Below, in pieces: positions 2,443 through 55,102 of a stretch of 64,000 nt of DNA. The stretch comes from Paenibacillus sp. 37 (GTDB taxonomy: Bacteria > Bacillota > Bacilli > Paenibacillales > Paenibacillaceae): NCBI RefSeq assembly GCF_008386395.1, contig NZ_CP043761.1, positions 6,262,001 through 6,326,000 on the forward strand. The letters run 5' to 3'. The notes below the pieces were generated by a model that did not search any database, was not told the origin of the DNA, and saw only the letters and a list, made by a program, of their open reading frames with translations. Numbering within the stretch: position 1 is the stretch's first letter; every line of letters begins with the position of its first letter. Position numbers and translations under genes: made by a program.

Positions 2443-2633
2443 ATTTACACTTACCACTCCGGGTGACAGAACAACCTTCCGATCGCTGTTATCCCCAGAT
2501 TTTTAATTCACTTTTACAAAGGTGAAAATCTGGGGATAGCGTATGCTTCCGATGCAGCTTTCTTTCAGAAAGCTTTTAGGCGAGCGCTCCGCTTCTCCAG
2601 TTTTTTTCTGTCCTTTACGTTTCTCGTGTAAAT
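2443..2633 (+). repeat. Interspersed structured repeat, copy 1 (full length)
   Basis: This 191-nt intergenic element is bounded by the inverted pair ATTTACAC (2443-2450) and GTGTAAAT (2626-2633). A second inverted pair GACAGAA / TTCTGTC lies inside. It also contains a long stem TATCCCCAGATTTT / AAAATCTGGGGATA and a tight hairpin AGCTTTC TTTC AGAAAGCT. The same modules in the same order recur near 46.6 kb and 55.0 kb, and in shortened form near 47.8 and 52.3 kb. It fills most of the 297-nt gap between galU and the SNF2-like gene, both minus-strand, and lies antisense to them. No coding potential is evident. Confidence 0.8.
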
Positions 2634-2698
2634 GATTAGTCCAACTTGTATAGATTCATATATTTAATGATTCTTATTGCTACGATGCTTGGACTCCA

Positions 2699-5600
2699 TT
2701 ATACCATCAACAATTCGCGGATATCCTGTTCCGATAAGGTCGTTGATCCTCCGTCTCCCGGTTCGATCACTTCGGCAATCAAGTCCTTTTTCCTCTGCTG
2801 GAGTTCCAGAATCTTCTCTTCGATCGTACCTTCGGTAACCAAGCGAATGACTTGTACCACTTGTTTCTGTCCCATGCGATGGGCACGGCCAATCGCCTGT
2901 TCTTCCACCGCGGGATTCCACCACAGATCATATAATATAACGGTATCTGCCCCTGTTAAGTTGAGTCCGGTCCCGCCAGCTTTCAGGGAGATTAAGAACA
3001 GTTCAGCTTCACCTTCGTTAAATCTGTGGCACATCTCGACCCGGCTCTGTGCAGGGGTCTGACCATCGAGGTAAAACAGGTTTCTTCCCTTTGCCGCAAG
3101 GGTCTGACGAATCAGGTTCAACATGCTCGCAAATTGGGAGAAGATGAGAATTCGTTTGCCTGCAGCCAAACAATCCTCGACCGTTTCAAGCAACTGTTCC
3201 ATTTTCCCGGAATCGCCTTGATATCCTTCGACAAAGAGGGCCGGATGACAACACAACTGACGCAAACGCGTGATGCCAGCCAGAATTTTGATACGATTCT
3301 TCTGGAATCCGTTATCCTCCATGTCCTTCGATGCTTCATCCTGAAGCTGGGAAAGGTATGCGGCGTACAGTTTCTTCTGTTCAACCGTAAGCTCTGAGCG
3401 CTGTACCGTTTCAATTCGATCAGGCAATTCTTCCAACACATCCTTCTTCAGGCGGCGCAGAATAAACGGACGCACCATCCGCGAGATCCGTTCCGGAGGA
3501 AGGTCGCGGAATCTTCTGTAACTTGGAAATAACCCAGGGAATACGGCTTCAAAAATGGACCACAATTCATCCAGCGAGTTCTCTACAGGCGTTCCTGTAA
3601 GTGCAAAACGACGCGGGGCCTGAATTTGTTTCACTGCCTGGGCGGTCTGGGAAGAAGCATTTTTGATTGCCTGAGCTTCATCCAGAATGAGCGTATGGAA
3701 GGTTCGGCCCAGGTAGGTGTCCAAATCCCGGCGCAACAGAGGATAAGACGTCACAATCACATCTGCCTCATCCATTCCAGAAAGCATGCTGGCTCGTTCT
3801 TCTTTCTGACCGGCTGCGATCAGGACTTTCAGATGCGGGGCGAACCGCGCAAACTCATTAGCCCAGTTGTAGGTCAGCGAGGCAGGCGCCACGACAAGTA
3901 CCGGGGGATGAATGACCCTCGTTCGGATTGTCAGTCCATCCTGCTGCATCGTGGACCATAAACCATCCTTATTCTCTGAAGTCATCTTATTCAATGGGAG
4001 TCCAGTTTCTAGATCGATGTCGGAAGTCACCAGCGTTTCAACGTCCCATAATGATCCGCTCTCCCGGTATTTATCAACGCCCGTATGGTCGATGTTGTAC
4101 TCGGGTTTCTCCTGAAGAACCGCTGTGATATAGGCGATGCTTTGCAACGTTTTGCCAAGTCCCATATCATCCGCGAGAATGCCGCCAAAACGATAATAAG
4201 CGAGGGTACGCAGCCACTGATATCCGCTGTTTTGATAATCCCGCAGGATGGGGGTCAATGCTTTTGGTAATGCAAAATCCATCCGTTCAGGATCGCGCAG
4301 ATCATCAAGGAAACGTTTCAGGGAGCCTCCCCACTTCACATGACCGGAAACTTCATCCCTGCCCGGCAACTGTAACGCCCGAACAGCTGGCAGCCGGATA
4401 TGGCTGCTCTTGATGTCATCTGCTCCAAGTCCAAGCGAATCAGCCATGTGAGCGAAGCTGTCTGCACCTTCATTTTCAAGCGAAAGAAAGACACCGCTCT
4501 TGAGACGGAAATATGGTTTCTTTTCCACAATGCGGCGCATGAGTTCCTGAAGTTCCTGCTCGTCCACACCTTCCATCTCAAATGAAATCTCCAGCCAGTC
4601 CAAACCCCTTCCCAAATCTGCTCGTACTTTCGGCGGTGTTGGATAGGATTGCACCATCGCCTTCACGGCGTTTGGCATATAAATATCTGCCTGTTTCTCA
4701 AGCTCAGGCAACAGATGATACATGACATCATAGATGGCATCTTCGCGTTCGCTCGCCCAAACACTACCGTCTCTTTCGAGAAAGGATCGATCAAGCCGTT
4801 CAATCAAGTTTCGCTCTTTGTATCGATCACGCACCAAAATAACCTTTTTCTCTTCTTCATCAATCAAGTACTCTGCCAGCGGATTAATAACCATGACCTC
4901 ATAGTCGAATTCCAGACGTGCTGTAATGCGTTCACGATAGAAGTCGATGTATAGTTTCGGTGAAAGTTCCGGTTCCGCAATCTGTTCACGCACCTGCGAA
5001 TCAATGGACAGATGTCCAAGCGTACGCAGTTCTGGCACCACATGTTGTACAAACTCGTCCACCTGCTGGGGCGAAATATCGATGCTTTCCTTGATTCCAT
5101 ATGAAGTGAGTGCACCACTCAAGTCCTCCAGACTTCGCATCTGCATCGGCTCCAACATATGCAACTGTCCTTCCACCACAGCGGCATCATAAGCAGGGAG
5201 AAGAATCAGTTCACGCAGTCCCGAAATTTCAAGCTGATACCCTTCATTCGTTCCCTGGGCAATCCGGTAAAACAAAGGCAATACTCCCTCACCGAGCGTG
5301 AGTGGTCCATTGGCAAATCCTGTACCCTCCATCCGACTGTCGGCCTGTAGTAGCAATTCCAGCAATGGCTTCCATACGAGCGGAGCAATCAGTATATCCC
5401 GTCCGTCCGACGCTCCCAAATAACCGGAGATGGATTCGCGGTATGCCTCTTCACTCTGTCTCATTCGAATAAGCATCGAGAGAATGGCCTGATCCTGCGG
5501 AGTGAAAACATGCATCAATGGATCATAGTGGAACAGCTTGGTAAATGACATTGGCTCGCCCTTCTCGATACAGTTCAGGAATTGTTTCACTTTCTGCACC

Positions 5601-6349
5601 ACATACAGACGTTTGTTACCCACTTTCAATTCAAGAGCAAGTTTCCCACCACCCTTGTGAACCTGTGTCAGCTTACATATAAACTGAACCTGCAATTCTT
5701 CCCGCAGGAAGGAACGGCTGACAGGGGCAGTGTATTTACGATCATTTCCATGCAGCGGTCTCCGATCCTTGGCAAACATGGACAGAATCTGATCCGCCGT
5801 ACGGTAAGAAGGTTTATCTGCCGAGCGGCCCCACCCCGAAGCTGAGCTTGGCCGACCTGCTTGGGCAAAATGAACCGGAGGACGCTCTGGAACATCATTC
5901 GGTTGCTCTCGTTGTGAATCAGACTGTGGTCGCTCCCACCTGCTCTCTTCCACTAACGTCCCGACCCTGGACTTGGAACCTATGCTGGAACTGGTACTGG
6001 CTCCTTGGCCTGTAGCAGGTTGAGGAGGCTTCCCAGAGGCAACTGTGGCATTCCGTTCCTGCTGCTCACCCCATTCATGAATAGCCAACAGGACAGCAGC
6101 AACATGTTTACAGTAGTCATAGTGTCTGCCGTCACCCGGACAACTGCAGCCTGCCACAACCTCTCCAGCTTCATCTATATCCACCGTCACCTGATAGCGC
6201 TCCGATCCACGCACCTGTGCTTCATAATGAAGCTGATCGTTACTGACCACCAGATTGGTCACCCTGCCAGATTGGTTATAATCTTCTCCGCGCTTGAATG
6301 CCGTGACCCCGCACAGCAATTTGATATCCATAATTGTGAATGGCGCCAC
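2699..6349 (-). CDS. SWIM zinc-finger SNF2-family helicase-like ATPase
   Basis: A 1216-residue Swi2/Snf2 ATPase, probably a DNA translocase remodelling protein-DNA or RNA polymerase complexes; the exact role is unknown. Near the N-terminus the SWIM motif is complete (C68, C70, C80, H82). A Ser/Gln-rich linker of about 110 residues follows. The motor domain lies in the C-terminal half: Walker A LADDMGLGKT near residue 730, DEAQ box near 890, LTGTPVENSLDELWSI, and the second RecA lobe with FSQFASMLNLI, SLKAGGTGLNLTGAD and QAIGRAHRMGQ. The start is GTG at 6349 with AGGAGG nine bases before it. In B. subtilis the related YwqA is shorter and a SWIM protein (YwqB) is encoded next to it, so this looks like a fused form. 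Confidence 0.9.
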   Translation of the reverse strand: MAPFTIMDIKLLCGVTAFKRGEDYNQSGRVTNLVVSNDQLHYEAQVRGSERYQVTVDIDEAGEVVAGCSCPGDGRHYDYCKHVAAVLLAIHEWGEQQERNATVASGKPPQPATGQGASTSSSIGSKSRVGTLVEESRWERPQSDSQREQPNDVPERPPVHFAQAGRPSSASGWGRSADKPSYRTADQILSMFAKDRRPLHGNDRKYTAPVSRSFLREELQVQFICKLTQVHKGGGKLALELKVGNKRLYVVQKVKQFLNCIEKGEPMSFTKLFHYDPLMHVFTPQDQAILSMLIRMRQSEEAYRESISGYLGASDGRDILIAPLVWKPLLELLLQADSRMEGTGFANGPLTLGEGVLPLFYRIAQGTNEGYQLEISGLRELILLPAYDAAVVEGQLHMLEPMQMRSLEDLSGALTSYGIKESIDISPQQVDEFVQHVVPELRTLGHLSIDSQVREQIAEPELSPKLYIDFYRERITARLEFDYEVMVINPLAEYLIDEEEKKVILVRDRYKERNLIERLDRSFLERDGSVWASEREDAIYDVMYHLLPELEKQADIYMPNAVKAMVQSYPTPPKVRADLGRGLDWLEISFEMEGVDEQELQELMRRIVEKKPYFRLKSGVFLSLENEGADSFAHMADSLGLGADDIKSSHIRLPAVRALQLPGRDEVSGHVKWGGSLKRFLDDLRDPERMDFALPKALTPILRDYQNSGYQWLRTLAYYRFGGILADDMGLGKTLQSIAYITAVLQEKPEYNIDHTGVDKYRESGSLWDVETLVTSDIDLETGLPLNKMTSENKDGLWSTMQQDGLTIRTRVIHPPVLVVAPASLTYNWANEFARFAPHLKVLIAAGQKEERASMLSGMDEADVIVTSYPLLRRDLDTYLGRTFHTLILDEAQAIKNASSQTAQAVKQIQAPRRFALTGTPVENSLDELWSIFEAVFPGLFPSYRRFRDLPPERISRMVRPFILRRLKKDVLEELPDRIETVQRSELTVEQKKLYAAYLSQLQDEASKDMEDNGFQKNRIKILAGITRLRQLCCHPALFVEGYQGDSGKMEQLLETVEDCLAAGKRILIFSQFASMLNLIRQTLAAKGRNLFYLDGQTPAQSRVEMCHRFNEGEAELFLISLKAGGTGLNLTGADTVILYDLWWNPAVEEQAIGRAHRMGQKQVVQVIRLVTEGTIEEKILELQQRKKDLIAEVIEPGDGGSTTLSEQDIRELLMV

Positions 6350-6376
6350 GCTTCTTCGCCTCCTGTATCATGATGT

Positions 6377-6416
6377 AAAAAAACCCCAAGAGCTCCTTGA
6401 AGCAGAGATTGGGGTT
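6377..6416 (-). terminator. Rho-independent terminator after U32 gene
   Basis: On the minus strand AACCCCAA pairs with TTGGGGTT across a 19-nt loop and is followed by a run of six or more T. It lies about 40 nt after the U32 gene stop and immediately upstream of the SNF2-like gene start. Confidence 0.85.
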
Positions 6417-6455
6417 CCTTCATACTTGTAACTGTTGTTGTACCATACAATCTAA

Positions 6456-8969
6456 TTATTTCACCAATTGACCACGTGTAACGCCCAGTTGGTTCGTTGC
6501 TTTGAGTGTTTTCCACACTTGTGTACCACTGATCTCGCCGCGCAATGCACGGTTGTACAGATCAATGACTTCGCGTACCTGCTCCGTTGTCTCTTCCAGG
6601 AATTCCACACGGTAACGGGATACACCCAGATCCATGAAGTTGGTCAGATACTCGGCACCTGACTGCTCCACTGCGTTGTATACCGTATTACGGCAGCCTT
6701 CATCCACACGTACTGGGTGGGACATGCCGATCCGGTCTTGCAGTGATGCACGCTGTTCCTCACAAGGACGACCACAGTTCGTATAGTCCGTTCCTTCACT
6801 CATAAACGTACAATACACACAGTGCTCGGTGTGGAACATTGGCAGATGCTGATGGATAACCACTTCGGTCTGACTTGTACGGGAGTGGCCCAGCAAATCA
6901 ACCATTTGTTGAATGTTCAGGTCATAGGATGGCGTAATCCAGTCACATCCGGCTTCCAGGAACAATTCAACGGCTTTGTGATTGGCGATGTTCAATGAGA
7001 AGTCGCCGATCAGTTCCGGGTGCGTTGCATCCGGGTTTTCCATCCGGTGGCGAAGGTAGAAGTACAGTGCGCCTGTATTACGTACCAATACCGCATCCGG
7101 CTTCAGACGCAGGATGTTGTTATGATATCCGTTCTCCCCAGGCATGTGAATACGCGGTGTTGCCAGCGCGATCTTGCGACCAGCGGCATGCACAGCTTCC
7201 ACGGCTGCCGGGAACTGCTTGATAAACTCGAAGTCGGCATAGATCATGCCGATGCCCGCTTCAATCGCTGCCTCCACTTGTGGCAGGCTGCGACAGAGCG
7301 CAGTCAGCTCTGCTTGACCGCGAGCGACTGGCGATGCCGGTTTAACCGAATCGCCGTACACATCGACCGCCCGTTTCACGTAGACAGGTGGTTTAGGACG
7401 TTCGCCCGCAAGTTGTTCTACCGCCTGACGGCGAATGTTATTCAACTCGCGCATCGGGATGATGACGTCACCGTGAAGATTGACGTCCATTCCCTCCAAC
7501 TGGAACACGGTGCCTCCCAGACGTCCGAACTGCTCTTCGAGCAATTCATGCGTCATTGGACGCTTCTGCGCAATGTCCAGTTCCATCTCGGAATCAATAC
7601 GGACGGTTGTGCCCTTCTGCACGTCTGTCCACCATGTGCTAAGCGGCTGGCCTGGGCTGCCGATGACCTTCACCTTCACCGGGAATACACGGTACGGTTT
7701 CTCGGTTTCGAAGCTTTGACGCAGACGTTTGTCCAGCGCCGGATCATTCGTTTTCCACACTTTGTCGCCAACTTTCACGCGTCGCAGATCCACATCACTG
7801 CGGCCTGGTACGACATCAACGATCCAACCCTCTTCGGCTTCGCCTTCGAGTTTTACGCCTTTGCGACGTACATCGTATACACGTCCGCCCTCTTCCTTCT
7901 GAGTCGGGTCTCCGGCGTCAAATACAATTCCGTCTCCACGTTTCACGGGTGCATCCAGCTTCAGGACCACACCATCGCGCAACACTTGATCTACACGACC
8001 AAGGTAGACGCCACGGCTTTTCGGGAACGTTCCATCCACCAGTTCTTTGTTGTTCGTACCACTGAGGAATCCATGCGTGAATCCACGGGAGAAGCTTTGC
8101 TGCAATTCGCGAACTTCTTCCTTGCTTGGCGGTGTGTTATCTCCATCAAAATAACGGTCAATCGCTTTACGATATTTGCTTACCACGTTCGCTACGTATT
8201 CCGGCGTTTTGAGACGTCCTTCTATTTTGAAAGAAGTCACTCCTGCTTCGATCAGTTCCGGCATCAGATCAATCGCTGCCAGATCCTTCGGAGACAACAG
8301 ATAGGCTACATCACCCATCGGTTTGTGCACTCCATCCACCATTAGATCGTATGGAAGACGACAAGCTTGTGCGCACTCCCCGCGGTTCGCCGAACGTCCT
8401 CCCCACATTTCAGAAGTCAGACACTGCCCCGAGTAGGATACACACAACGCACCGTGAACGAACACTTCCATTGGAAGCTTCGCCTGTTCACCGATCTTCT
8501 GGATCTGCTTCAGGTTGTTCTCCCGTCCCAGAACGACACGTTCCATATCAAACGGCTTCGTGAACTCGACCGCTTCCGGTGACGTAATCGTCATCTGTGT
8601 TGAACCGTGAATCGGGAAATCCGGCGAGATCTCGCGGATCATCTTCACCAAACCCAAATCCTGAACAATTACAGCGTCCACACCTGCATCGACACATGCA
8701 TCAATCAGTTCTTTGGCATCCGTCAATTCATTTTCAAAAATCAATATATTAAAGGTCAAGAAACCTTTTACGCCATAACTGTGCAAAAACGCCATAATCT
8801 CCGGCAGCTCGTCCATGCGGAAATTGTTCGCTCGTGCCCGTGCATTAAACTTTTCGACTCCGAAGAAAATTGCATCTGCGCCATTGGCTACCGCCGAACG
8901 CATACAATCCCAGTCACCAGCAGGTGCCAGAAGTTCAACGTCTTCTCTTCGTATTGTTGCTGTTTTCAT
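6456..8969 (-). CDS. U32 peptidase-family protein, probable RNA hydroxylation factor
   Basis: This 837-residue protein belongs to the U32 'collagenase-like' family. Characterised members (E. coli RlhA and TrhP, B. subtilis YrrN/YrrO) hydroxylate cytidine or uridine in 23S rRNA or tRNA and use an iron-sulfur cluster, so a role in RNA modification is more likely than proteolysis. It opens with VELLAPAGDWDCMRSAV, followed by GADAIFFG and EVFVHGALC. Conserved cysteines are at SGQC and RGECAQAC, with a further group HCVYC and CGRPCEEQ near the C-terminus. The length resembles the long RlhA-like branch. The start chosen is ATG 8969, preceded by GGGGAGG; an ATG five codons earlier lies within that ribosome site. 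The substrate is not determined. Confidence 0.88.
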   Translation of the reverse strand: MKTATIRREDVELLAPAGDWDCMRSAVANGADAIFFGVEKFNARARANNFRMDELPEIMAFLHSYGVKGFLTFNILIFENELTDAKELIDACVDAGVDAVIVQDLGLVKMIREISPDFPIHGSTQMTITSPEAVEFTKPFDMERVVLGRENNLKQIQKIGEQAKLPMEVFVHGALCVSYSGQCLTSEMWGGRSANRGECAQACRLPYDLMVDGVHKPMGDVAYLLSPKDLAAIDLMPELIEAGVTSFKIEGRLKTPEYVANVVSKYRKAIDRYFDGDNTPPSKEEVRELQQSFSRGFTHGFLSGTNNKELVDGTFPKSRGVYLGRVDQVLRDGVVLKLDAPVKRGDGIVFDAGDPTQKEEGGRVYDVRRKGVKLEGEAEEGWIVDVVPGRSDVDLRRVKVGDKVWKTNDPALDKRLRQSFETEKPYRVFPVKVKVIGSPGQPLSTWWTDVQKGTTVRIDSEMELDIAQKRPMTHELLEEQFGRLGGTVFQLEGMDVNLHGDVIIPMRELNNIRRQAVEQLAGERPKPPVYVKRAVDVYGDSVKPASPVARGQAELTALCRSLPQVEAAIEAGIGMIYADFEFIKQFPAAVEAVHAAGRKIALATPRIHMPGENGYHNNILRLKPDAVLVRNTGALYFYLRHRMENPDATHPELIGDFSLNIANHKAVELFLEAGCDWITPSYDLNIQQMVDLLGHSRTSQTEVVIHQHLPMFHTEHCVYCTFMSEGTDYTNCGRPCEEQRASLQDRIGMSHPVRVDEGCRNTVYNAVEQSGAEYLTNFMDLGVSRYRVEFLEETTEQVREVIDLYNRALRGEISGTQVWKTLKATNQLGVTRGQLVK

Positions 8970-9251
8970 GTAGATCCTCCCCATAACCGGCTATCCGCCG
9001 GATTTCATCCCTATATCCTTAAACGCCTGAACATACCAAGCCTAAGACTGCACCTTATCGGGTACACCTGCATTGTCACGGTATTACAATATCTATCTAT
9101 TATGTCTGTATTGCCTGAACTCCAAGCTTACAGTCATTCATATTCACCAGATCAGCAGTCATAACTCCTGAACTAGTATAGTGTACCACTTCTGCACCGA
9201 CTCTTCTACGTTTTCCTGAAAAAACCGTTTACCATTTTCATTTCCATTAAG

Positions 9252-9284
9252 ATTTACACTAGGCACTCCGATTACAGTGTAAAT
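9252..9284 (+). repeat. 33-nt element resembling joined ends of the interspersed repeat
   Basis: A perfect 9-bp inverted repeat, ATTTACACT and AGTGTAAAT, with a 15-nt centre. Its outer 8 bases match the ends of repeat copy 1, and the run ACTCCGATTACAG is identical to 13 bases at the 5' end of the copy near 54.93 kb. It reads like the two ends of that repeat with the whole interior missing. It could also serve as an operator for the U32 gene downstream on the minus strand. Confidence 0.5.
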
Positions 9285-9307
9285 ATTTAATTTATCTTAT
9301 ACAGACA

Positions 9308-9342
9308 ACAAATAAGCCGGAAGGTCTTTTGACCCTCCGGCT
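9308..9342 (-). terminator. Rho-independent terminator after stalk-domain gene
   Basis: A 12-bp stem with one mismatch (AGCCGGAGGGTC with GACCTTCCGGCT) has a four-base loop and is followed on the minus strand by TTATTTG. It starts about 10 nt after the stop codon. Confidence 0.8.
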
Positions 9343-9351
9343 CCGCTACAA

Positions 9352-11247
9352 TTATTTAATAAAAGTAAATGAGTTCACTGCTTTTTCCAAGGCTGCCGCC
9401 TGAACTTCTGTCTTGTTGGCATCATTCAGGCCACTTGTAATCGTATAGGTTGTTCCGTCCTTTTCAAACACGATCTGGCGACCCGCATATGGCACGCCTT
9501 TGTCCAGTTCATGATACGTAAAGGAAAATGCAGGCACACCCGCAAACGTCAGCTCCTCACTGCCAAGCAACTTGAAGTTCTTACGGGTTTTGGTGGCTTC
9601 GGCATAAGCTTCTCTCAGTTGGCTGACCGTCATTTCGATCGACTTGTCTTCGCTCGCCGCAATGGAGAATTCTCCGCCGGTAAAGGTGTACACTACAGGT
9701 GAATATTCGAATCGATCACTGTAAGGTGTCCAGTAACGCGGAATATCTACACTGTATTTATAACGTTTGGACGTACGTGTAAGTGTCTTCGTTTTGTCTG
9801 TCAGATAAGGATCTTCATCCAGCTGACCGAAATTATCGGCAACCGTATCAAAATCAATCTCCACACTCTTCATAATCCGTTCAAACCATGCCCGATCTGC
9901 AATCTGCTCCTCAGGAAACGTATACTCTGCATAATAGCGATACCCATTCTTCTGCAAAAGAACATCAAACTCGGTCTGCCAGCCCCCGCCAAAGTTATAA
10001 CGGAATTCATTCACCTCGGCAGTCTCTCCCGAGATATCCATCGTATATGAACCAATTGGCTCGTAACTCTCTGGTGTAAATGTCTCACGCATCCACTTAT
10101 CCAGTTGGCCGCTCCAGTCTTTTACCGTAGTACCTGCCTTCGCCGATGTGACACGCCATTGCAGATATGCACCATCCTTGGCTTCATAGATCATCTGATT
10201 GTTGTCAATCGACCAGCCGGCAGGAATCATCAACTCAATACCATAGTCATCGTTCCACGCGGAGCGCATGCCATTATCTACGGTAGACAGATCCTTGATC
10301 GTTCGATCCGATTCCGCATAGGTTGGCTGGAATGAATTGAGTAGCGCTGCACGTTTGCCCAGATCTTTATAATTCAATGCTTCGTAATCCGCGAGATACA
10401 CATCATATTGACGACCTTCGCTCAGATACTGACGCATCTCCCATAACATACCGTCTACATCTTTCACGATAATCCGTGCATAAGGCGTTTTGCCTTTCGA
10501 CACCGCTTCACGATCCAGCACCGTATCTCCCGATTGTTTGGCCTCCTGGACGAGTTGCTGCAACAAATCATCCGCATCCAGAGCCACATCCTGATCGCTG
10601 ACGTACACCTCAAGATAATAACTGTTGTCTGCAGCGCCGAAAGTCATCATGCGCTCCTGCTCACCGGTCTGGAAAACCATAAGGTCTGCCGGGTAGTTAA
10701 TGGACCAGCCGTAAAAACTGTTGCCGATTCTGGTTTTGCCTTCATCCGGATGAATGCCATCCTCGTCATCCACCGAATCATCGGTTTGCAACAGACGAAT
10801 GACCATTTCTCCAGAGCTGGTTGGAGCTAGCGTCGCTCCGATACCGGCAGCAACCGGACGAAGTGGGACCATGAGTACGCCATTCACCATCTTGGGAGCG
10901 GCACCCATCTCATGTTTCACACCATCCACCCAGGCAATTGGACTTCCAATCGTTAGGGTAACCGTGTGCGGACCTTCCTTGATTTTGACGACATCATTTT
11001 TCTCCAGCCGGATTTCACTGCCAAATGCTTTCTTGAACACACCAACAGGCACCATCGTAACACCCTTGAATTTGTAAGGTTTGGCTATGGCCTGCTTATC
11101 ACCGTTAATGTAGGCGCTCGTGCTACCCGCTTTGACCCGTAGTTCACTTGTCGTCAGATCAGATGCCCATACAGGCAATGCCGCGCCAATGGTCAGCATC
11201 CCGGTTAATACACCTGTGCTTAGCACACGTATCCATGACTTTTTCAT
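9352..11247 (-). CDS. Secreted protein with copper-amine-oxidase-type stalk domain
   Basis: A predicted exported protein of about 631 residues. From the start chosen at 11247 (MKKSWIRVLSTG) there is a classic signal peptide with likely cleavage after VWA. Residues of about 35-160 carry the stalk domain seen in many Paenibacillus surface proteins (VKAGSTSAYINGD, VPVGVFKKAFG, VMVPLRPVAAGIGA). The remaining two-thirds shows three related stretches with YSINYPADLMVF, YGIELMIPAGWSI and YSVDIPRYWTPY, suggesting a repeated fold of the PsbP-like kind; no enzyme motif is visible. It follows the HtrA-like gene by 43 nt, so the two are probably cotranscribed. An upstream ATG at 11271 is possible, but GAGAGG favours 11247. 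The function is unknown. Confidence 0.8.
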   Translation of the reverse strand: MKKSWIRVLSTGVLTGMLTIGAALPVWASDLTTSELRVKAGSTSAYINGDKQAIAKPYKFKGVTMVPVGVFKKAFGSEIRLEKNDVVKIKEGPHTVTLTIGSPIAWVDGVKHEMGAAPKMVNGVLMVPLRPVAAGIGATLAPTSSGEMVIRLLQTDDSVDDEDGIHPDEGKTRIGNSFYGWSINYPADLMVFQTGEQERMMTFGAADNSYYLEVYVSDQDVALDADDLLQQLVQEAKQSGDTVLDREAVSKGKTPYARIIVKDVDGMLWEMRQYLSEGRQYDVYLADYEALNYKDLGKRAALLNSFQPTYAESDRTIKDLSTVDNGMRSAWNDDYGIELMIPAGWSIDNNQMIYEAKDGAYLQWRVTSAKAGTTVKDWSGQLDKWMRETFTPESYEPIGSYTMDISGETAEVNEFRYNFGGGWQTEFDVLLQKNGYRYYAEYTFPEEQIADRAWFERIMKSVEIDFDTVADNFGQLDEDPYLTDKTKTLTRTSKRYKYSVDIPRYWTPYSDRFEYSPVVYTFTGGEFSIAASEDKSIEMTVSQLREAYAEATKTRKNFKLLGSEELTFAGVPAFSFTYHELDKGVPYAGRQIVFEKDGTTYTITSGLNDANKTEVQAAALEKAVNSFTFIK

Positions 11248-11290
11248 TCCGTTCTTTCGTCCTCTCTCCATCCGGGCTGATCGCCGGGCT

Positions 11291-12460: not shown

Positions 12461-12564
12461 ATTCTCACCTGACCCTCTCTATACATCCTTCTTGCGCGAC
12501 TCGACATCGGATTCATCGCTGAATCTATTCGCTCTTTCTCTCATCTGCAATTCCGGTATCCCTC

Positions 12565-12593
12565 AATGTATCATACAGAATCTGGATATACAA
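12565..12593 (-). promoter_or_regulatory. Candidate promoter of the HtrA-like gene
   Basis: On the minus strand TTGTAT (12588-12593) is separated by 17 nt from TACATT (12565-12570), with a TG just upstream of the -10. Both hexamers match four of six consensus bases. It lies about 105 nt before the start codon. It is a candidate only. Confidence 0.4.
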
Positions 12594-12654
12594 TTGTTTT
12601 AAGTCCTATTTTAGTAGAGAAGGTAGAATCTTGTTCAATCGTTTCAGTATAAAT

Positions 12655-12690
12655 GAAAAAAACACCCTCCATGTCTCTCTGGAAAGTGTT
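12655..12690 (-). terminator. Rho-independent terminator after small membrane protein gene
   Basis: On the minus strand AACAC and TCCA pair with TGGA and GTGTT, giving an interrupted stem, followed by seven T. It lies about 50 nt after the stop of the 70-residue gene. Confidence 0.7.
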
Positions 12691-12737
12691 CGTCTGTACC
12701 TCTTTTGGCTTAAATTCCATTCACTTCAGTGGCATTC

Positions 12738-45115: not shown

Positions 45116-45314
45116 CTATAATGTCCTCCTTATTTCCGGTTCCCTGCACCCGCATGGGCAGAAGAGAGAGCAACGTTGACACGTTGGCTTCGTGCTTCTC
45201 AAATTTATTCATTTCCACCTTCTGCGAGTTCACCGCGCGGCTACAGGGATTCATCATCTCATTCTGCTTCGAGGCCAGTTAGGGCCCCGAGACAGAAAGG
45301 TTCTCATTTTTATA

Positions 45315-46568: not shown

Positions 46569-46624
46569 GACCATATCACTCCTATTGGTTGGTGCAACGG
46601 CACTCATTATGAGAACACCTTAAC

Positions 46625-46810
46625 TTTACACTTGTCACTTCGATGACAGAACAACCTTCCGATCGCTGTTATCCCCGGATTTTTTTGATTGTCCCTTAAA
46701 GGTGGAAATCCGGGGATAGTGTATGCTTCCGAAGTAGCTTTCTTTCAGAAAGCTTTTAGGCGCACGCTTCGCTTCTTCAGGTTATTTCTGTCCTCTACGT
46801 TATTGTGTGA
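46625..46810 (+). repeat. Interspersed structured repeat, copy 2 (inside the arg operon)
   Basis: This 186-nt element lies between argB and argD, antisense to the operon. It shares with copy 1 the 5' end TTTACACTT, GACAGAACAACCTTCCGATC, the stem TATCCCCGGATTT / AAATCCGGGGATA, the AGCTTTC/GAAAGCT hairpin, and TTCTGTCCT near its 3' end. The outer 3' end has drifted (GTGTGA). Because it is within a transcribed region its hairpins will form in the arg mRNA and could influence RNA stability or readthrough. Confidence 0.8.
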
Positions 46811-46892
46811 TGTTCAATCTTCACATAAAAAAGCCGTGCACATATTTTTTATTTACTATCAAACCATGAAGACCCTAGCGCACTGAGAATAA

Positions 46893-47732: not shown

Positions 47733-47819
47733 GAGGGCAAGCTCCTTTCTTAGTAAAAATCACATTCAATAAAATTCAACACTTTTAAAAGATGACATTG
47801 TCGTAGGAGTCCATTCCAA

Positions 47820-47950
47820 ATTCGGATTGTTCTTTCGATCGCTGTTGTCTCCCAGATTTCTTGAATTATCCCTATTATAGGGGGAAATCCGGAGACAAAG
47901 GCGAACGCTCCGCTTCTTCAGAATCAATTCCGTCTTCTCCATTACTATCG
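47820..47950 (+). repeat. Interspersed structured repeat, copy 3 (shortened, between argJ and argB)
   Basis: This copy retains CGATCGCTGTTGTCTCC, a long stem around CCAGATTTC / GGAAATCCGG, and the 3' module GGCGAACGCTCCGCTTCTTCAG, ending near TTCCGTCTTCTCC. The AGCTTTC/GAAAGCT hairpin module present in the other copies is missing, and the ends are degenerate. It lies in the 334-nt argJ-argB spacer; I see no other feature in the rest of that spacer. Confidence 0.7.
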
Positions 47951-48066
47951 CTATATATCAAACATTAAATAACAAGTTTAAATTTCATTGATGATTTTTG
48001 AAATATTTCAAATCAGCTTCACAATAGAAGATAGCTGTTTCGTAAACATTTTGTCCCAAAGGCTTA

Positions 48067-49305
48067 TTACGTTCGGTATGCGGCGTTAATTCGGACGTAG
48101 TCATACGTCAGGTCACAGCCCCAGGCTGTTGCTGTTCCTTCGCCGTGGTGCAGATCCACCACAATGCGAACTGTATCGGTCTGTAAATACGCCAATGCCA
48201 ATTCTTCGTCGAAAACGACTGGACGGGATTGTTCAAGTACCGAGATCTCTCCCAACCGAATATTTACCGTATCCGGGTTCACTGGCTGTCCTGCACGCCC
48301 TACGGCTGCAATAATCCGTCCCCAGTTAGCGTCAGCGCCAAACATGGCTGATTTGACCAGACTGGACCCGATGACGGTTTTGGCAATGGCTTGCGCGGAT
48401 TCATCACTTACCGCACCAGTCACTTCTACCTCAACCAGTTTGGTTGCTCCTTCACCATCGCGAGCAATGGCTTTGGCCAGCACTTGGCATACATAGGTGA
48501 AGCCGGCTGCAAAAGCGTCCCAATCCGGATGATCTGTGGTCAGCTCTTCATTGCCTGCATATCCACTGGACATGGCTACCAGCATGTCGTTCGTACTTGT
48601 ATCCCCATCGACGGTAATCATGTTGAATGTATGATTTGTTGCCTGGCGCAGCAGGCGCTGCAACGCTTCTGCACCAATGACCGCGTCAGAGGTCATGAAA
48701 GCGAGCATTGTCGCCATATTCGGATGAATCATTCCCGAGCCTTTGGCGGCACCCGCAATCGTAACCGTCTTGCCGTTAACCAGAACGGAGACACAGGCTT
48801 CCTTTTTCACCAAATCCGTTGTCAGAATCGCTTGTGAAAATTGTTCCGCCTCATTCGACTCCTTGCCCATATGCGCCGGAAGGCCGGTAATGCCTGAATG
48901 CACAGCATCCATTTTGAGCAATTCCCCAATGACACCTGTGGAAGCCACCGCCACGTCCTCTTCTGCCACAGCCAACTCACGCGCAGCAGCCGAACGCATC
49001 GCATAAGCATCTTCTTCCCCTTGTTGCCCTGTGCATGCATTAGCGTTACCGCTGTTAACGATAACAGCCTGAAGACGTCCATTGTTTAAGCTTTCGCGCG
49101 TTACTTTAAGTGGTGCAGCTTGAAACACATTCGTTGTATATACAGCCGCAGCTGTAGCCGGTACATCACATCGGATCGCTCCGATGTCATTCCGGGATGT
49201 CTTTTTCAACCCGCAGTGAAGTCCACCAGCAGTGAATCCCCCAGGGGTTACAATTGTTCCGTTCTCAACCACGGTAAAACTCTGTTGCTCCACATTCGTT
49301 CCCAT
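48067..49305 (-). CDS. argJ: Bifunctional ornithine acetyltransferase / N-acetylglutamate synthase
   Basis: Recycles the acetyl group from N-acetylornithine to glutamate and, in bifunctional forms, also acetylates glutamate with acetyl-CoA. The 412-residue precursor contains the self-cleavage site in GSGMIHPNMATMLAF (between Ala and Thr), giving alpha and beta chains, and NSGNANACTGQQG in the first half. The C-terminus DYVRINAAYRT is typical. There is no argA in the window, so the bifunctional type is probable but not shown. The ribosome site is GGGGGA. Confidence 0.95.
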   Translation of the reverse strand: MGTNVEQQSFTVVENGTIVTPGGFTAGGLHCGLKKTSRNDIGAIRCDVPATAAAVYTTNVFQAAPLKVTRESLNNGRLQAVIVNSGNANACTGQQGEEDAYAMRSAAARELAVAEEDVAVASTGVIGELLKMDAVHSGITGLPAHMGKESNEAEQFSQAILTTDLVKKEACVSVLVNGKTVTIAGAAKGSGMIHPNMATMLAFMTSDAVIGAEALQRLLRQATNHTFNMITVDGDTSTNDMLVAMSSGYAGNEELTTDHPDWDAFAAGFTYVCQVLAKAIARDGEGATKLVEVEVTGAVSDESAQAIAKTVIGSSLVKSAMFGADANWGRIIAAVGRAGQPVNPDTVNIRLGEISVLEQSRPVVFDEELALAYLQTDTVRIVVDLHHGEGTATAWGCDLTYDYVRINAAYRT

Positions 49306-49434
49306 ATCATATCCCCCGTATGCGTTCAGCTATATGCCGATGATCCGCCTGCTTAACCTGATCCAATCTCCATAAATGACCCCGAGAAAGCACTTTACAC
49401 TGAATGTTCCAGTACTCCTCCTGAATTCCAGCTC

Positions 49435-50484
49435 TTATGGATATACCGGTGTCATGTTCAGCCCGAGGTTCTCCTCCCATCCCATCATCAGGTTCATATT
49501 TTGAATCGCTTGCCCGGATGCACCCTTCACCAGGTTGTCGATGACCGAAATAATCGTCAAACGCCCTGTGCGAGGATCTACCGCAAATCCGATATCACAA
49601 TAGTTGGATCCGTACACTTCTTTGGTAGAAGGCCAGATGCCCGGTTCACGTACACGTACGAAAGGTCTGTTCTCATAATATTTGCGGTATAAATCTACGA
49701 TCTCCCGATCGCTGTGTTCCCCAACGAGTTTTGCATACATCGTACTCATGATTCCACGTGTCATAGGCACCAGATGTGTTGTAAAGGTAACCGTAACAGG
49801 CGTTCCCGTTAGATCACCAAGCACTTGTTCGATCTCGGGAATATGTTGGTGTTTGTTCAGTTTATAGGCTTTGAGATTTTCATTCATCTCTGCATAATGG
49901 TTTGTCAGACTTGTTCCGCGTCCTGCCCCGGACACGCCTGATTTGGCATCAATAATAATAGTAGAAGGATCAATCCAGCCTGCCTCTACTGCAGGGATCA
50001 GTCCAAGAAGTGTAGCCGTTGGATAACAGCCCGGGTTGGATATGAAATTCTGTCCCTTCACCTTTTCACCGTACACCTCAGCCATGCCGTATACCGCTTG
50101 TTCCAGCAAATCAGATGAAGGCGCCGGATGTTTGTACCACTCTTCATACACCGTTCCATCCTTGAGTCTGAAATCGCCAGACAGATCAATGACCTTAAGC
50201 CCTGCTGCCAGCAAGCTTGGTACGAGCTTTGCACTTACGCCGGACGGGGTTGCTGTGAATACCAGATCTGCACGACTCGCAATTTCAGCCGGATCTACAC
50301 CGTCGAGTGGCCTGTGAATCACGTCCGTCAAATGCGGAAATCCATCTGCGATGGATTCACCACTGCTCGATGATGAGATCACCGATGTGATTTCAACCTG
50401 CGGATGGTTCTGGAAAAAACGAATCAGCTCCACCCCGCCGTAGCCGGTGGAACCGACGATTGCTACTTTTAATTTGTTATTCAC
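49435..50484 (-). CDS. argC: N-acetyl-gamma-glutamyl-phosphate reductase
   Basis: NADPH-dependent reduction of N-acetylglutamyl phosphate. The 349-residue protein begins KVAIVGSTGYGGVELIRFF (nucleotide site) and has the catalytic cysteine in ISNPGCYPTATLLG, plus KSGVSGAGRG. The frame is open to 50661, but the GTG at 50484, after GGGGGAG, gives the normal N-terminus; the extra frame runs through the promoter. It is the first gene of argCJBDFGH. Confidence 0.97.
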   Translation of the reverse strand: MNNKLKVAIVGSTGYGGVELIRFFQNHPQVEITSVISSSSSGESIADGFPHLTDVIHRPLDGVDPAEIASRADLVFTATPSGVSAKLVPSLLAAGLKVIDLSGDFRLKDGTVYEEWYKHPAPSSDLLEQAVYGMAEVYGEKVKGQNFISNPGCYPTATLLGLIPAVEAGWIDPSTIIIDAKSGVSGAGRGTSLTNHYAEMNENLKAYKLNKHQHIPEIEQVLGDLTGTPVTVTFTTHLVPMTRGIMSTMYAKLVGEHSDREIVDLYRKYYENRPFVRVREPGIWPSTKEVYGSNYCDIGFAVDPRTGRLTIISVIDNLVKGASGQAIQNMNLMMGWEENLGLNMTPVYP

Positions 50485-50571
50485 TCTCGCTCCCCCAATC
50501 TCGATGTATGCGCTACTTGTGCTATGTCCTTGCCTGAAGGATACTTGAACACAGCAATTCCGTCGCTTATA

Positions 50572-50616
50572 TGCATATTTGTGTATTATTATACGACTCT
50601 GGTTATATAAATACAA
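50572..50616 (-). promoter_or_regulatory. arg operon promoter with overlapping ArgR-like box
   Basis: On the minus strand TTGTAT (50611-50616) is followed by 17 nt and a perfect TATAAT (50588-50593). The AT-rich imperfect dyad at 50572-50595 (GTATAATAATAC then CAAATATGCA on the minus strand) resembles ArgR/AhrC operators, which pair TGNAT-type half-sites around A/T centres. It covers the -10 and start site, the expected place for arginine repression. The leader is about 97 nt. The rest of the 330-nt argC-cls gap shows nothing else clear. Confidence 0.6.
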
Positions 50617-50814
50617 CACTCTATCATCAATTTCACATGGATTTCCATCCAACCCGAACATATCTTTTTTACTATCCGGGACGAATAGGTATACATCTGT
50701 TAAAATACGTATTAGTAGGAAACATTACAATCAGGGTCTCATTCATAACTAACCTGCTAATCAAGGACATATGAATAGATTCATGATGGTCATTATGAGA
50801 CGTGGGGGACTATA

Positions 50815-52263
50815 GTGCATATCGAATCCATTTTACTTATTGTACTCCTGGGCCTGAATATTATTTTTGCGGCAGCAGTCGTTTTCTTCGAACGGAAGGA
50901 TGCCAGCGCTTCCTGGGCTTGGCTGCTCGTCTTGAACTTTATTCCGGTGTTTGGGTTTGTACTTTATCTTTTAACCGGTCAGAACCTGACCCGATACCGG
51001 CTTTTCCAGTGGAAGGAACGCAAGAAGCTCGGGCTAGAGGAACGTATTGAAGCCCAGCTCACACAGTTGCACGACAACCGCACACCTTTCCGCAACCAAG
51101 CAACCGAGAGTAGCCAGGACATGATCTATATGAACCTGAAGCAGAACGGCGCTCTGTTAACGGAGGATAATGCGGTTGAGATCATTACAGACGGAACAGA
51201 CAAGTTCCAACGGCTCTTGGACGACATCGAAGCGGCTCAGGATCACGTGCACGTACAATACTACATTTATAGAGGCGACCGTCTGGGCAAAAGAATTCGG
51301 GATGCACTTATCCGCAAAGCGCGGGAAGGCATCAAAGTTCGTCTACTGTATGACGCGCTCGGATCACGGCGGGTTTCCAAACGCTTTTTCAAAGAATTGC
51401 GCGAAGCAGGCGGTTTGGTTGAAGTCTTTTTCCCATCCAAATTCAGTCTGATCAACTTGCGTATGAACTACCGGAACCACCGTAAGATTGTCATCATCGA
51501 TGGTAACTTGGGGTACACAGGCGGGTTTAACGTTGGAGATGAGTATCTCGGCTTGAACTCGAAATTCGGTTACTGGCGTGACACACATCTGCGTATTCAA
51601 GGGAACGCCGTTCATGCGCTGCAGACCCGTTTCCTTCTGGATTGGAATGAAGCGTCCAAACAACACGACACACCTTACGTTCCGGCGCATTTCCCTCATA
51701 TCGAGGGCACAGGAAAGATCGCCATGCAGATTGTCTCCAGTGGACCGGATGCAGAGACTGAACATATCAAGAACAGTTATCTCAAGATGATTAACGGGGC
51801 CAAACAATCGATTCTGATTCAAACGCCTTATTTTATCCCGGATGCCAGTGTATTCGAAGCTATTCGTCTCGCGTGTCTGTCCGGCATAGATGTTCGCATC
51901 ATGATTCCAAATAAACCCGACCACGCCTTTGTATATTGGGCTACGTTATCTTATATTGGTGAGTTGTTGAAGGTGGGCGCCAAAGTATTTATATATGATA
52001 ATGGCTTCATTCATGCCAAAACACTTATCATTGACAGTTTGGTTGCATCCGTGGGAACCGCCAATATTGACTACCGCAGTTTCCGGTTGAACTTTGAGGT
52101 TAATGCCTTTATGTACGATGAAGCGATTGCGACAGCACTTGTACAAACCTTTGAGCATGACCTGCATGTATCGCGGGAAATGACGCTTGATGAATACCAA
52201 AAACGAAGTCTGATCATTCGCTTCAAAGAAGCGATTTCCCGTCTGTTATCTCCAATTCTGTAG
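50815..52263 (+). CDS. cls: Cardiolipin synthase
   Basis: A membrane phospholipase-D-family enzyme joining two phosphatidylglycerols into cardiolipin. The 482-residue protein has two N-terminal transmembrane helices with the usual ASASWAWLLVLNFIPVFGF. It has two HKD motifs: NHRKIVIIDGNLGYTGG and IHAKTLIIDSLVASVGTANID. Length and order match bacterial ClsA-type enzymes. The start is GTG 50815 after GTGGGGGAC. It is the only plus-strand gene in this part and ends next to repeat copy 4. Confidence 0.95.
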   Translation: MHIESILLIVLLGLNIIFAAAVVFFERKDASASWAWLLVLNFIPVFGFVLYLLTGQNLTRYRLFQWKERKKLGLEERIEAQLTQLHDNRTPFRNQATESSQDMIYMNLKQNGALLTEDNAVEIITDGTDKFQRLLDDIEAAQDHVHVQYYIYRGDRLGKRIRDALIRKAREGIKVRLLYDALGSRRVSKRFFKELREAGGLVEVFFPSKFSLINLRMNYRNHRKIVIIDGNLGYTGGFNVGDEYLGLNSKFGYWRDTHLRIQGNAVHALQTRFLLDWNEASKQHDTPYVPAHFPHIEGTGKIAMQIVSSGPDAETEHIKNSYLKMINGAKQSILIQTPYFIPDASVFEAIRLACLSGIDVRIMIPNKPDHAFVYWATLSYIGELLKVGAKVFIYDNGFIHAKTLIIDSLVASVGTANIDYRSFRLNFEVNAFMYDEAIATALVQTFEHDLHVSREMTLDEYQKRSLIIRFKEAISRLLSPIL

Positions 52264-52374
52264 CGGTGGCACTCTAATGACAGAATCGCCTTCCGAAGTA
52301 GCTTTCTTTCAGAAAGCTTTTAGGCGCACGCTTCGCTTCTTCAGGCTATTTCTGTCCTCTCCGTTATCGTGATG
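52264..52374 (+). repeat. Interspersed structured repeat, copy 4 (shortened, after cls)
   Basis: This copy contains TGACAGAAT, CCTTCCGAAGTAGCTTTC, the GAAAGCTTTTAGGCGCACGC module and TTTCTGTCCTCT, but lacks the long TATCCCC stem. The junction is a single CTTCCGA where full copies have two CTTCCGA words bracketing the missing segment. It begins right after the cls stop codon. GACAGAA/TTCTGTC still form an outer stem. Confidence 0.75.
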
Positions 52375-52398
52375 TTTAATTAAAATTATAGTAATAGT

Positions 52399-52453
52399 AA
52401 AAAAACAGGCATATCCTCTCCCGTCATTTCGGAGAAGGATATGCCTGTTTTTT
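52399..52453. terminator. Bidirectional terminator between cls and yvjA-like gene
   Basis: AAAAAACAGGCATATCC pairs with GGATATGCCTGTTTTTT, with CTC/GAG inside, giving an A-run and T-run on the two sides. It serves the converging genes. Confidence 0.9.
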
Positions 52454-52514
52454 CTTGTCTTGAACTTCCAAACTTATGAGCCTACACGGCTCAATCACCA
52501 GTTTCTACACCCGT

Positions 52515-53423
52515 TCACACATGTTCTCCCCGCTTAAAACCTTCGCCGAGCACTTCGTGCGCGTTACTGATAATGACAAAAGCTCCCGGGTCCACAGACC
52601 GGATTAATGCTTTGAGTCTTGGTACCTCATTTTGCCCAACCACGACCATCAGTACGGTTCGTTGATCGTCGGTGTAACCGCCCTTGGCTTCCAGCTTCGT
52701 TAATCCGCGATCCAAGTCATCCAGAATCACTTTGCTAATCGCTTCCGTCTGGTTGGAGATAATATAAGCCACCTTGGAGAAACCCAACCCCATCTCAACG
52801 GCATCGATCACTTTACCGGTAACATACAACCCAATCAGCGCATAGAGGGATTGCTCCAATGACAATACAAAAGCAGCCATAATAATAACTGTAGCATCCA
52901 TAATTACGACACACAGAGAATAACTCAGTCCACTGTATTTCTGTACGATTCGGGCAAGAATGCTCATGCCACCTGTTGATCCTCTACCTCGGTATACAAT
53001 TCCAATCCCTAAACCAACACCAATCCCACCATACAGTGAACCAAGGAGTGGATTCGTTGTTGGGATGGCCCAATCCTTTGTGAGATAGACTAAGAGCGGC
53101 AGGACAATACTGCCCAGGACTGAACGAATACCATACTGCTTACCAATAAGCAGAAAACCCGCGATTAGAAGTGGGATGTTAATCGCCCATTGGGTATATG
53201 CCGGTTCCCAATTAAGCCATTCCTTGCCCAGGATCGATAACCCGGACACCCCACCTGAAGCGATCTGATTCGGTAATAAAAATAAATTAAAGGCCACTGC
53301 AATTAAAAACGAACCTAAAATGATAGATACCGTGTCCACGACGTTTCTCCATGGACCATTGAGTGGAATGAGGCTAGTTATCCTCTTTTTGCGGCTGTTG
53401 TGAAGTTGTGATCGTTGTTGCAT
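52515..53423 (-). CDS. yvjA: YitT-family (YvjA-like) membrane protein
   Basis: A 302-residue protein with five or six transmembrane helices over residues of about 25-200 (SIILGSFLIAVAFNLFLLPNQIASGG, then GSLYGGIGVGLGIGIVYRG) and a cytoplasmic DUF2179 domain at the C-terminus (LTKLEAKGGYTDDQRTVLMV...NEVPRLKALIRSVDPGAFV). The YitT family's transport role is not firmly known. Its place beside prfB fits B. subtilis yvjA. I use ATG 53423, after AAAGGAG; an ATG fifteen codons earlier has no ribosome site. Confidence 0.85.
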   Translation of the reverse strand: MQQRSQLHNSRKKRITSLIPLNGPWRNVVDTVSIILGSFLIAVAFNLFLLPNQIASGGVSGLSILGKEWLNWEPAYTQWAINIPLLIAGFLLIGKQYGIRSVLGSIVLPLLVYLTKDWAIPTTNPLLGSLYGGIGVGLGIGIVYRGRGSTGGMSILARIVQKYSGLSYSLCVVIMDATVIIMAAFVLSLEQSLYALIGLYVTGKVIDAVEMGLGFSKVAYIISNQTEAISKVILDDLDRGLTKLEAKGGYTDDQRTVLMVVVGQNEVPRLKALIRSVDPGAFVIISNAHEVLGEGFKRGEHV

Positions 53424-53494
53424 GTTCTCGTGCTCTCCTTTGTTGGGACTGATCAGTTGTTTGTTCATATTCTCTATATCTTATAAAATGATTC

Positions 53495-53552
53495 AAAAAA
53501 AAGCTCCTGTATACACCAGCATACGCCTACACGTATGGGTCCATACAGGAAC
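53495..53552 (-). terminator. prfB terminator
   Basis: AGTTCCTGTAT pairs with ATACAGGAGCT, with an inner CATACG/CGTATG stem, followed by eight T on the minus strand. It starts a few bases after the prfB stop. Confidence 0.9.
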
Positions 53553-53557
53553 TTATA

Positions 53558-54671
53558 TTAATCGGTTTCTACTTTAATCTGGCTACGCAAATAACCATCG
53601 ATGAATGCATCGAGGTCGCCGTCCATTACTGCCCCTGTATTTCCAGTCTCTACGCTTGTACGGTGATCCTTTACCATACTATAGGGATGGAACACATAGG
53701 AGCGAATCTGGCTACCCCATGAAATATCCGACTGATCTCCTCGGATTTCATCCAGCTGTTGTTTTTGCTCTTCAATTTTACGCTCATACAATTTCGAACG
53801 AAGCATCTTCATCGCCCGCTCACGGTTCTTGATCTGTGAACGTTCATTCTGACACGTTACAACTACACCTGTTGGAAGGTGGGTAATCCGCACGGCTGAG
53901 TCGGTGGTATTGATATGCTGTCCACCCGCGCCACTCGCACGGTAGGTATCAATCTTGAGATCCTCTGTTCGAATGTCCAATTCAATCGTATCATCAATCT
54001 CAGGAACCACATCACATGATACGAAGGAAGTATGCCTACGGCCCGAGGAGTCAAAAGGAGAGATTCGCACCAGTCGGTGTACACCCTTCTCGGCTTTCAG
54101 ATAACCATAAGCATTGTGCCCCTTGATCGACAACGTAACACTCTTGATCCCCGCCTCATCACCTGGCAGATAATCCAATACCTCAACCTTGAAGCCCCGC
54201 TTCTCAGACCAACGTGTGTACATCCGGAGCAACATCTGTCCCCAGTCCTGTGACTCGGTACCACCTGCCCCCGGATGAAGCTCTAGAATGGCATCCATCT
54301 TATCATACGGCTGGTTCAGGAGAAGTTGAAGTTCGAACTCTGCCACCTTGCTCACGATCGCTGTGACGCTTCTACCGATCTCTGCAGCGAGGTCTTCGTC
54401 GCCTTCCTCGTCAGCCAGTTCTACCATCATCACCGCATCATCATAATCCTGTTGGAGTTTGGTGTATTGATCCACAGAACCCTTCACCGCATTTAGCTCA
54501 GCAATTACGGATTGCGCCTTGTCACTATCGTCCCAGAAATCGGGGGCAGACATCTTCACTTCGAAGTTGCCGATCATCTCTTGCTTCAGATCTAAGTCAA
54601 AGAGACCCCCTAAGGTTTGTTAGTTTTTTGCCTATTTCACGCAGGTCATGCTTCACATTTGGATCGATCAT
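53558..54671 (-). CDS. prfB: Peptide chain release factor 2, with programmed +1 frameshift
   Basis: Releases finished proteins at UGA and UAA. A 24-codon first segment from ATG 54671 ([20 protein letters not shown]...) ends CTT and then in-frame TGA (54597-54599). Reading resumes one base later as GAC TTA GAT, giving 370 residues in total. The main segment has the UGA-recognising SPF tripeptide in [10 protein letters not shown] and the GGQ catalytic loop in [15 protein letters not shown]. The ribosome site is AGAGGA before the ATG. It follows secA after a 478-nt spacer holding repeat copy 5, as in the B. subtilis secA-prfB order. Confidence 0.96.
54596..54611 (-). promoter_or_regulatory. prfB programmed frameshift site
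   Basis: The minus strand reads AGGGGG TCT CTT TGA C. The internal Shine-Dalgarno-like AGGGGG (54606-54611) sits three bases before the slippery CTT, followed by the in-frame TGA and C. This is the classic RF2 autoregulatory site: low RF2 slows UGA termination and raises +1 shifting. Confidence 0.95.
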
Positions 54672-54914
54672 GTGCAATTCCTCTTTTCATTAAGATAAAC
54701 TCCCCGCATCCAGGGCATTCCTCCAGATCAAGTAAGTGATGCGCCACCCTGGTGTTGAGACTACTGTTATATCAGTATATCTCTTCCCCGTGATCATGGT
54801 CATATGATTATAACTATGCACCATTAATCGGTTTTGCATCCTTCACTTCATTCTATGGGATACCCGGCTGCGAGGAGCCGTTCATGTCATGCTATCTAAG
54901 TTGACCTCATGCAT

Positions 54915-55102
54915 GTTACACCTGTTACTCCGATTACAGCAGCATCTTCCGATCGCTCTTATCCCCAGATTTTCTTGATTCCCTCTTACAAGGGAAAAAT
55001 CCGGGGATAGCGTATGCTTCCGATGTAGCTTTCTTGCAGAAAGCTTTTAGGCGAACGCTCCGCTTCTTCAGATTGCTTCTGCACTCTCCGTTATGGTGTA
55101 AA
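54915..55102 (+). repeat. Interspersed structured repeat, copy 5 (full length, between secA and prfB)
   Basis: The element runs from GTTACAC to GTGTAAAA with all modules: CTTCCGATCGCTCTTATCCCC, the stem CCCCAGATTTT / AAAATCCGGGG, GCTTCCGATGTAGCTTTC, the GAAAGCTTTTAGGCGAACGC hairpin module, and TTCTGCACTCTCCG. The loop base of the small hairpin differs (TTGC for TTTC). It occupies the secA-proximal part of the 478-nt secA-prfB spacer. The prfB-proximal part holds a TATAAT (54807-54812, minus strand) without a clear -35. Confidence 0.8.

Follow-up and report, generated by a model that had tools for sequence, protein, structure and literature searches.

What are the five related repeats found between genes in a 64,000-nucleotide stretch of Paenibacillus sp. 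37, and why do they carry a long folded interior? The stretch, referred to here as the window, corresponds to positions 6262001-6326000 of contig 1 in a genome of 7.62 Mb and two contigs. The original prediction, made on the window, left two natures for the repeats: they could be a miniature inverted-repeat transposable element (MITE) that an unseen transposase moves, or else an RNA element with structure. The five repeats are probably members of a non-autonomous IS630-type MITE family with an older folded module, here called the core, as interior. This judgement rests on the BLAST matches of the core in other genera, the transposon settings where it was identified and the covariation of its paired positions.

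A profile built from the five copies matched all of them in the window (E 1.2e-63 to 1.1e-32), values that measure mutual similarity only, since the same copies built the profile. A covariance model with 44 training rows, copy 3 being included and the other four window copies excluded, also identified the five (E 1.6e-35 to 5.1e-12); its remaining four matches in the window were weak and corresponded to the reverse strand of the same copies. With the positions of the genes, these matches bear out the prediction of five related copies, all intergenic and all on the plus strand.

Anatomy and copy number of the element

The genome-wide search that had been proposed for the repeats was carried out on 101 tiles comprising 2.064 Mb, nearly all placed on known matches. 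The profile gave 218 raw matches, 178 without antisense overlaps and 160 elements after merging of pieces. Pattern counts over the whole genome were 146 for CGATCGCTGTTATCCCCAGATTT and 57 for the hairpin, with 0 in the reversed controls, and the end pattern gave 125 matches against 23 in controls. Contig 2 (about 543 kb) had none of the 57 hairpin matches, all of which fall on contig 1.

The conserved block has sharp limits, CTATATAAGTTGAAC in 97 left ends and GTTCAACTTATATAG in 91 right ends, the outermost T and A being conserved in 79 and 77% of the left ends and in 89 and 78% of the right ones. These limits lie about 20 bp beyond those originally drawn, which were too narrow: the terminal repeats reach further out, copy 1 extends over approximately 2420-2653, and the pair ATTTACAC/GTGTAAAT, formerly taken as terminal, is not the element end and has the terminal repeats some 20 bp outside it. 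Element length is about 195 or 233 bp, with terminal inverted repeats of about 20 bp. Of the 83 full copies, 36 belong to a long form of 225-250 bp, which has an extra hairpin module, and 41 to a short form of 180-206 bp; full copies are too short for a transposase gene, as is characteristic of a MITE. Double-hairpin, end-only and core-only forms were also identified, and at 5824290-5824938 of contig 1 (L139:18269-18938) three cores stand in tandem, about 265-280 bases apart, with flanks that resemble one another.

The site of copy 5 is common to most of 30 aligned genomes. Counting its own genome, 23 have the element (three without the right end), three a partial deletion and four no element; the hairpin module is present in some genomes and missing from others. 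The module also differs at orthologous sites between Paenibacillus sp. 37 and its relative G022. At the copy 5 site of loci L172, L178, L179 and L180 (genomes G091, G094, G070 and G090) a different element subfamily was found, by replacement or conversion.

Target site and relation to IS630

Pairs of filled and empty sites were obtained against G022 and against 80 named loci, so that copies exist in one species and are missing at the same site in another. Eleven scripted junction tests represented 10 sites (L248 and L308 are one site), and a clean 2-bp TA duplication, with TA on both sides, was the best join in three of the 11 tests: copy 1, L309 and, in a tie with 1 bp, L292. Copy 1 has TA at 2421-2422 and 2651-2652, and the corresponding site of G022 is without it. 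IS630 elements favour CTAG as target. At site 157295, where the best join was 1 or 9, the ends were misplaced by the script and TA is seen at the junction by eye. Compared with tile L066 of the own genome, the empty site of L248/L308 reads TATATA, an extra TATA over plain TA that could be the footprint of an excision or, the DNA being AT-rich, due to chance. In L018 one copy is nested inside another.

The closest ends were identified in L220, an IS630-family element of the same-genus genome G081 with 1173 bp between its ends, which share 18 of 20 and 19 of 20 bases with those of the MITE. Its two open reading frames (ORFs) scored 95.7 and 146.9 bits against the IS630 model (cut-off 100, the first being just below). 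L217 reached 244 bits, with ends identical at 14 and 16 of 20 positions, and in seven further IS630 loci the best 20-mers near the ends matched 12-17 of 20. That the MITE arose simply by loss of the interior of L220 was rejected, because within the outer 40 bases of each end the two elements are alike in the terminal repeat only.

Across 75 genomes of the genus the IS630 model had some match in 62 and matches above the cut-off in 13. The own genome had none above 100 bits, its best match being 29 bits. An IS630 transposase would have moved the elements in trans, and the own genome would have since lost it. The plasmids searched yielded one 44-bp match only and the phages searched no match. With terminal repeats, TA duplication at the clean sites and ends matching an IS630 element of the genus, IS630-type MITE identity is well supported at the level of sequence and agrees with the MITE and unseen transposase that the original prediction put forward as one option.

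A core present in other genera and other transposons

The short consensus matched 181 of 295 genomes of the family, distributed in 12 of 19 genera; among the matches listed, most of those outside the genus comprised the core only, at 72-84% identity. Within the genus, 31 of 36 genomes had a match to a long copy, as against 0 of 23 from other families of the same order. Of 398 genomes of the phylum searched with the core model under strict filters, 8 gave a match, seven of them from the same family and one, weak, from elsewhere (E 4.8e-4). Twelve genomes selected from seven other genera had 1 to 44 core matches each, at most 40 candidates being scored. Exact matches to the hairpin region were all titled Paenibacillus (best 80 of 94 named stretches).

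The surroundings of the core differ among these genomes. In genus g34 it lies between IS630-like ends. G293 contains two identical copies with ends of another kind and 8-bp direct repeats, ATTAATCA and GAAAAAAG; duplications of 8 bp and GG ends fit ISL3. In G262 the core is placed between a repeat-like left end and an IS1182 transposase ORF (397 bits, cut-off 270), with its plus strand and the ORF on the same strand. G260 and G163 present the core with yet other flanks. By BLAST, the own-genus core matched those of G293 and G262 with E values of 3.4e-12 and 9.3e-16. Two clear settings other than the MITE thus support, from sequence, a core common to several transposon families. The best reading is that the core is a portable folded module, older than the ends and possibly also older than the genera that carry it, and its recurrence in other jumping DNA of related bacteria suggests some use worth carrying.

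Bacterial MITEs are usually regarded as transposons with the middle deleted; here it is the middle that is widely common and the ends that vary by genus.

Pairing constraint on the core

The whole element folds as a single rod, with energies on the two strands of -75.9 and -81.8 kcal/mol for the short consensus and -87.3 and -92.3 kcal/mol for the long one. The default consensus fold of the own-genus copies was poor and the copies were projected on a consensus instead. Covariation was analysed in an alignment of 44 cores, 21 of Paenibacillus and 23 of other genera, hand-picked from 68 distinct cores found by pattern; those of G262 and G346 are not part of it. Its 29 invariant columns overstate conservation, because the search pattern itself required roughly two thirds of them. 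Columns 34 and 101 form a T-G pair, invariant in 44 of 44 cores, within an otherwise Watson-Crick helix (T34 was required by the pattern).

A structure of 30 pairs, written after inspecting the folds, was compared with 500 shuffles, which leave relatedness in. Pairing was kept in 90.9% of cells against 81.8 in the shuffles, double changes occurred in 16 pairs against 10.2, and double-changed cells were 137 against 46.7 +/- 6.6; none of the 500 shuffles reached any of these values. Slid versions of the structure had at most 26 double-changed cells. Further pair types gave a weaker signal, with 35 against 30.3 and with 14 of the 500 shuffles at the observed value or above it. A pairing constraint on the core across genera is supported, and the part of the original prediction that proposed selection on structure stands to that extent. 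The level of RNA does not follow from it: in the 68 cores, pairs common to the folds of both strands had 53 G-T and 43 A-C, both scarce and near equal, so that pairing is kept, demonstrably neither as RNA nor for a particular strand. The strand-specific folds had G-T to A-C ratios of 140:52 on the plus fold and 57:135 on the minus fold, each being richer in its own wobble by construction.

Orientation relative to genes and replication

Orientation was analysed in 152 elements (E up to 1e-6), of which 12 overlap an ORF and 136 were classified; genes were longest-ORF calls and related copies are not independent. In the gaps between co-directional genes of the own genome, 81 elements were antisense and 16 sense (p 1.2e-11). 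The named loci, with 81 of 95 classified, gave 48:7 (p 1.3e-8). Replication was considered as main driver of orientation and ranked second to gene direction, because elements in convergent gaps were 10:10 relative to replication and those between lagging-strand genes were antisense in 7 of 10 pairs. Orientation does track replication in divergent gaps (15:4) and in core-only copies (18 of 18). Gene direction thus accounts for the bias in the main, and replication to a smaller extent. The uniform orientation that the original prediction reported over 53 kb is correct inside the window, is local, and mainly reflects the direction of the genes.

Copies 2 and 3 are located inside argJ-argB-argD, presumably part of an argCJBD operon. 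These genes are all on one strand, so transcription presumably crosses the reverse complement of both copies. Between convergent genes, the median distance from stop codon to element was 20 nt for genes reading into the plus strand and 83 nt for those reading into the other (n=35, p 0.0099), with p 0.035 in the named loci. These distances suggest that the plus strand can end transcripts.

A possible one-way gate and the alternatives

A tentative explanation of why one module resides in unrelated transposons (IS630-type MITEs, the element with 8-bp duplications and the IS1182 leader) is that the core may act as a one-way transcription gate, a hypothesis with moderate, indirect support. Possibly it would hinder transcripts entering its plus strand and let pass those entering the other. 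Such a core would leave mostly antisense survivors between co-directional genes, and the host would tolerate a transposon carrying it, or the transposon would be protected against transcription from outside. If this were true, mobile DNA of several kinds would have in the module a common 'good-neighbour' or self-protection device, and not the remnant of one transposon. It becomes testable whether small mobile elements carry a module that makes the host tolerate them or that controls transcription coming from outside.

Several results weigh against the MITE with a gate-like core. In eight of the 11 junction tests the script did not show a 2-bp duplication (best joins of 0 in four, and of 0 or 1, 4, 6, and 1 or 9 in the rest) and the single L248/L308 site reads best without duplication. 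In G293, the transposase partner of the core's ends was not found; one ISL3 transposase was above the cut-off and none was near the end-like sites. The orientation bias was only 8:2 antisense to sense in other genera (18 of 28 loci classified, p 0.11), and the asymmetry of convergent stop distances was not significant when the own genome was taken by itself (p 0.12). When copies 1, 2 and 5 were scanned for promoters and terminators, no canonical terminator came up; a single promoter-like site was identified at 46820-46848, beyond the core of copy 2. Finally, the plus strand in G262 is co-directional with the transposase and the core would sit in the leader of that same gene.

The alternative that survives best, which we hold possible and no stronger, takes the core for a structured RNA. 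It would most likely be produced from the reverse complement of the strand originally read and be co-transcribed with its neighbours as a leader or untranslated region, the transposon ends being the vehicle. The covariation across genera agrees with it, and so does the 81:16 bias, which makes the reverse complement sense to most co-directional flanking genes. In divergent gaps of the own genome the element is nearer the gene to which the reverse complement is sense (left gap 33, right gap 187, p 0.0024), although this asymmetry is weak in the named loci (97 vs 123). Core pairs within the genus lean to A-C over G-T (50:26 and 18:6), that is, to G-U on the reverse complement, a lean not seen in end and tip pairs; on pairs common to both folds, however, the two are near equal, as described above. 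Against this alternative, the G262 core has its other strand, the plus one, sense to the transposase. It is also weakened by Rfam, which had 0 matches in the window at gathering score; at relaxed scores copy 1 obtained weak matches to microRNA families only (E up to 1).

Somewhat less probable, and on balance unlikely, is a core without function, an old palindrome of mobile elements whose arms are kept paired by correction at the DNA level through template switching or gene conversion. The excess of double changes (137 cells) over one-sided wobble variants (14 cells) would be expected from such correction, and the gain or loss of the hairpin module at the same site between species and the other subfamily at the copy 5 site in the four genomes named above point the same way. 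It leaves unexplained the unpaired sequence conserved across genera (with the reserve on pattern selection already given), the same core between unrelated ends and the orientation bias. That the core is itself mobile by some unspecified mechanism, inserting into transposons and intergenic gaps, is improbable: core-only copies in the own genome (18 classified) and in many genomes of the family, and the different ends around the core, could be such insertion settings, but core-only copies can be decayed elements and no empty site of a lone core was seen, the empty sites examined being those of end-bearing elements.

Comparison with known repeats

The nearest known system is RUP of Streptococcus pneumoniae, a MITE of IS630-Spn1 of 107 bp with about 110 intergenic copies (PMC3049150, PMC2229807). 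Both families have IS630-like ends, a TA target, intergenic copies and a fully base-paired fold. The Paenibacillus elements are of 195 or 233 bp, have a long conserved core that is found between other ends, and the matches listed for them in named genomes are all titled Paenibacillus. RUP shows a strand bias of 60.9% to the leading strand, whereas the bias here is 81:16 against co-directional genes. Length, host and core differ and the family is therefore separate from RUP despite the shared ends, target and copy number.

ERIC and Correia elements are likewise intergenic MITEs with TA at their ends and stem-loop transcripts, and the effect of ERIC on transcripts depends on orientation (PMC2229807, PMC10969869); by description they are set apart by other bacteria and other lengths. 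BOX of the pneumococcus is, as here, built of modules, the inner ones varying and the ends pairing, although its ends are likened to ISSpn2, again by description (PMC3049150). Mosaic non-autonomous transposons, the point of likeness, are already in print, judging by the title of a report on Tn3-derived ones made by TIMEs in Pseudomonas (PMC4133298). In the open-licence literature searched, as far as its accessible text goes, there was no account of such repeats in Paenibacillus and none of one interior flanked, in Paenibacillaceae, by the ends of different families. Many Paenibacillus genomes have such repeats in well over a hundred gaps each, where they could mislead the annotation of RNAs, promoters and terminators; the description turns them into a family that can be searched for.

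The copies in the window

The five copies, all on the plus strand, had been proposed to contain near-identical modules; this holds for copies 1, 2 and 5, which are long and have the AGCTTTC/GAAAGCT hairpin, and fails for copies 3 and 4. Copy 1 (2420-2653), delimited by sequence and empty-site comparison, is a long form with both terminal inverted repeats between galU and a Snf2-like helicase gene. It comprises the left terminal repeat (2420-2439, with the inner ATTTACAC at 2443-2450), the core assigned by the covariance model (2454-2621), the hairpin module (2539-2578, limits approximate), absent from the short forms, and the right terminal repeat (2636-2653, with the inner GTGTAAAT at 2626-2633). 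Copy 2 (46615-46829, core 46634-46801) is a long form with decayed ends in the argB/argD gap. Copy 3 (47810-47943), in the argJ/argB gap, consists of a core and has no recognisable transposon ends. Copy 4 (52256-52395, core match 52268-52365) contains mainly the right half and the hairpin, and directly adjoins the stop codon of a cardiolipin synthase gene. Copy 5 (54889-55120, core 54924-55092) is a long form in the prfB/secA gap. The 5' part of prfB (window 54580-54640, minus strand) contains AGGGGGTCTCTTTGAC, which we take to be the usual release-factor-2 frameshift site.

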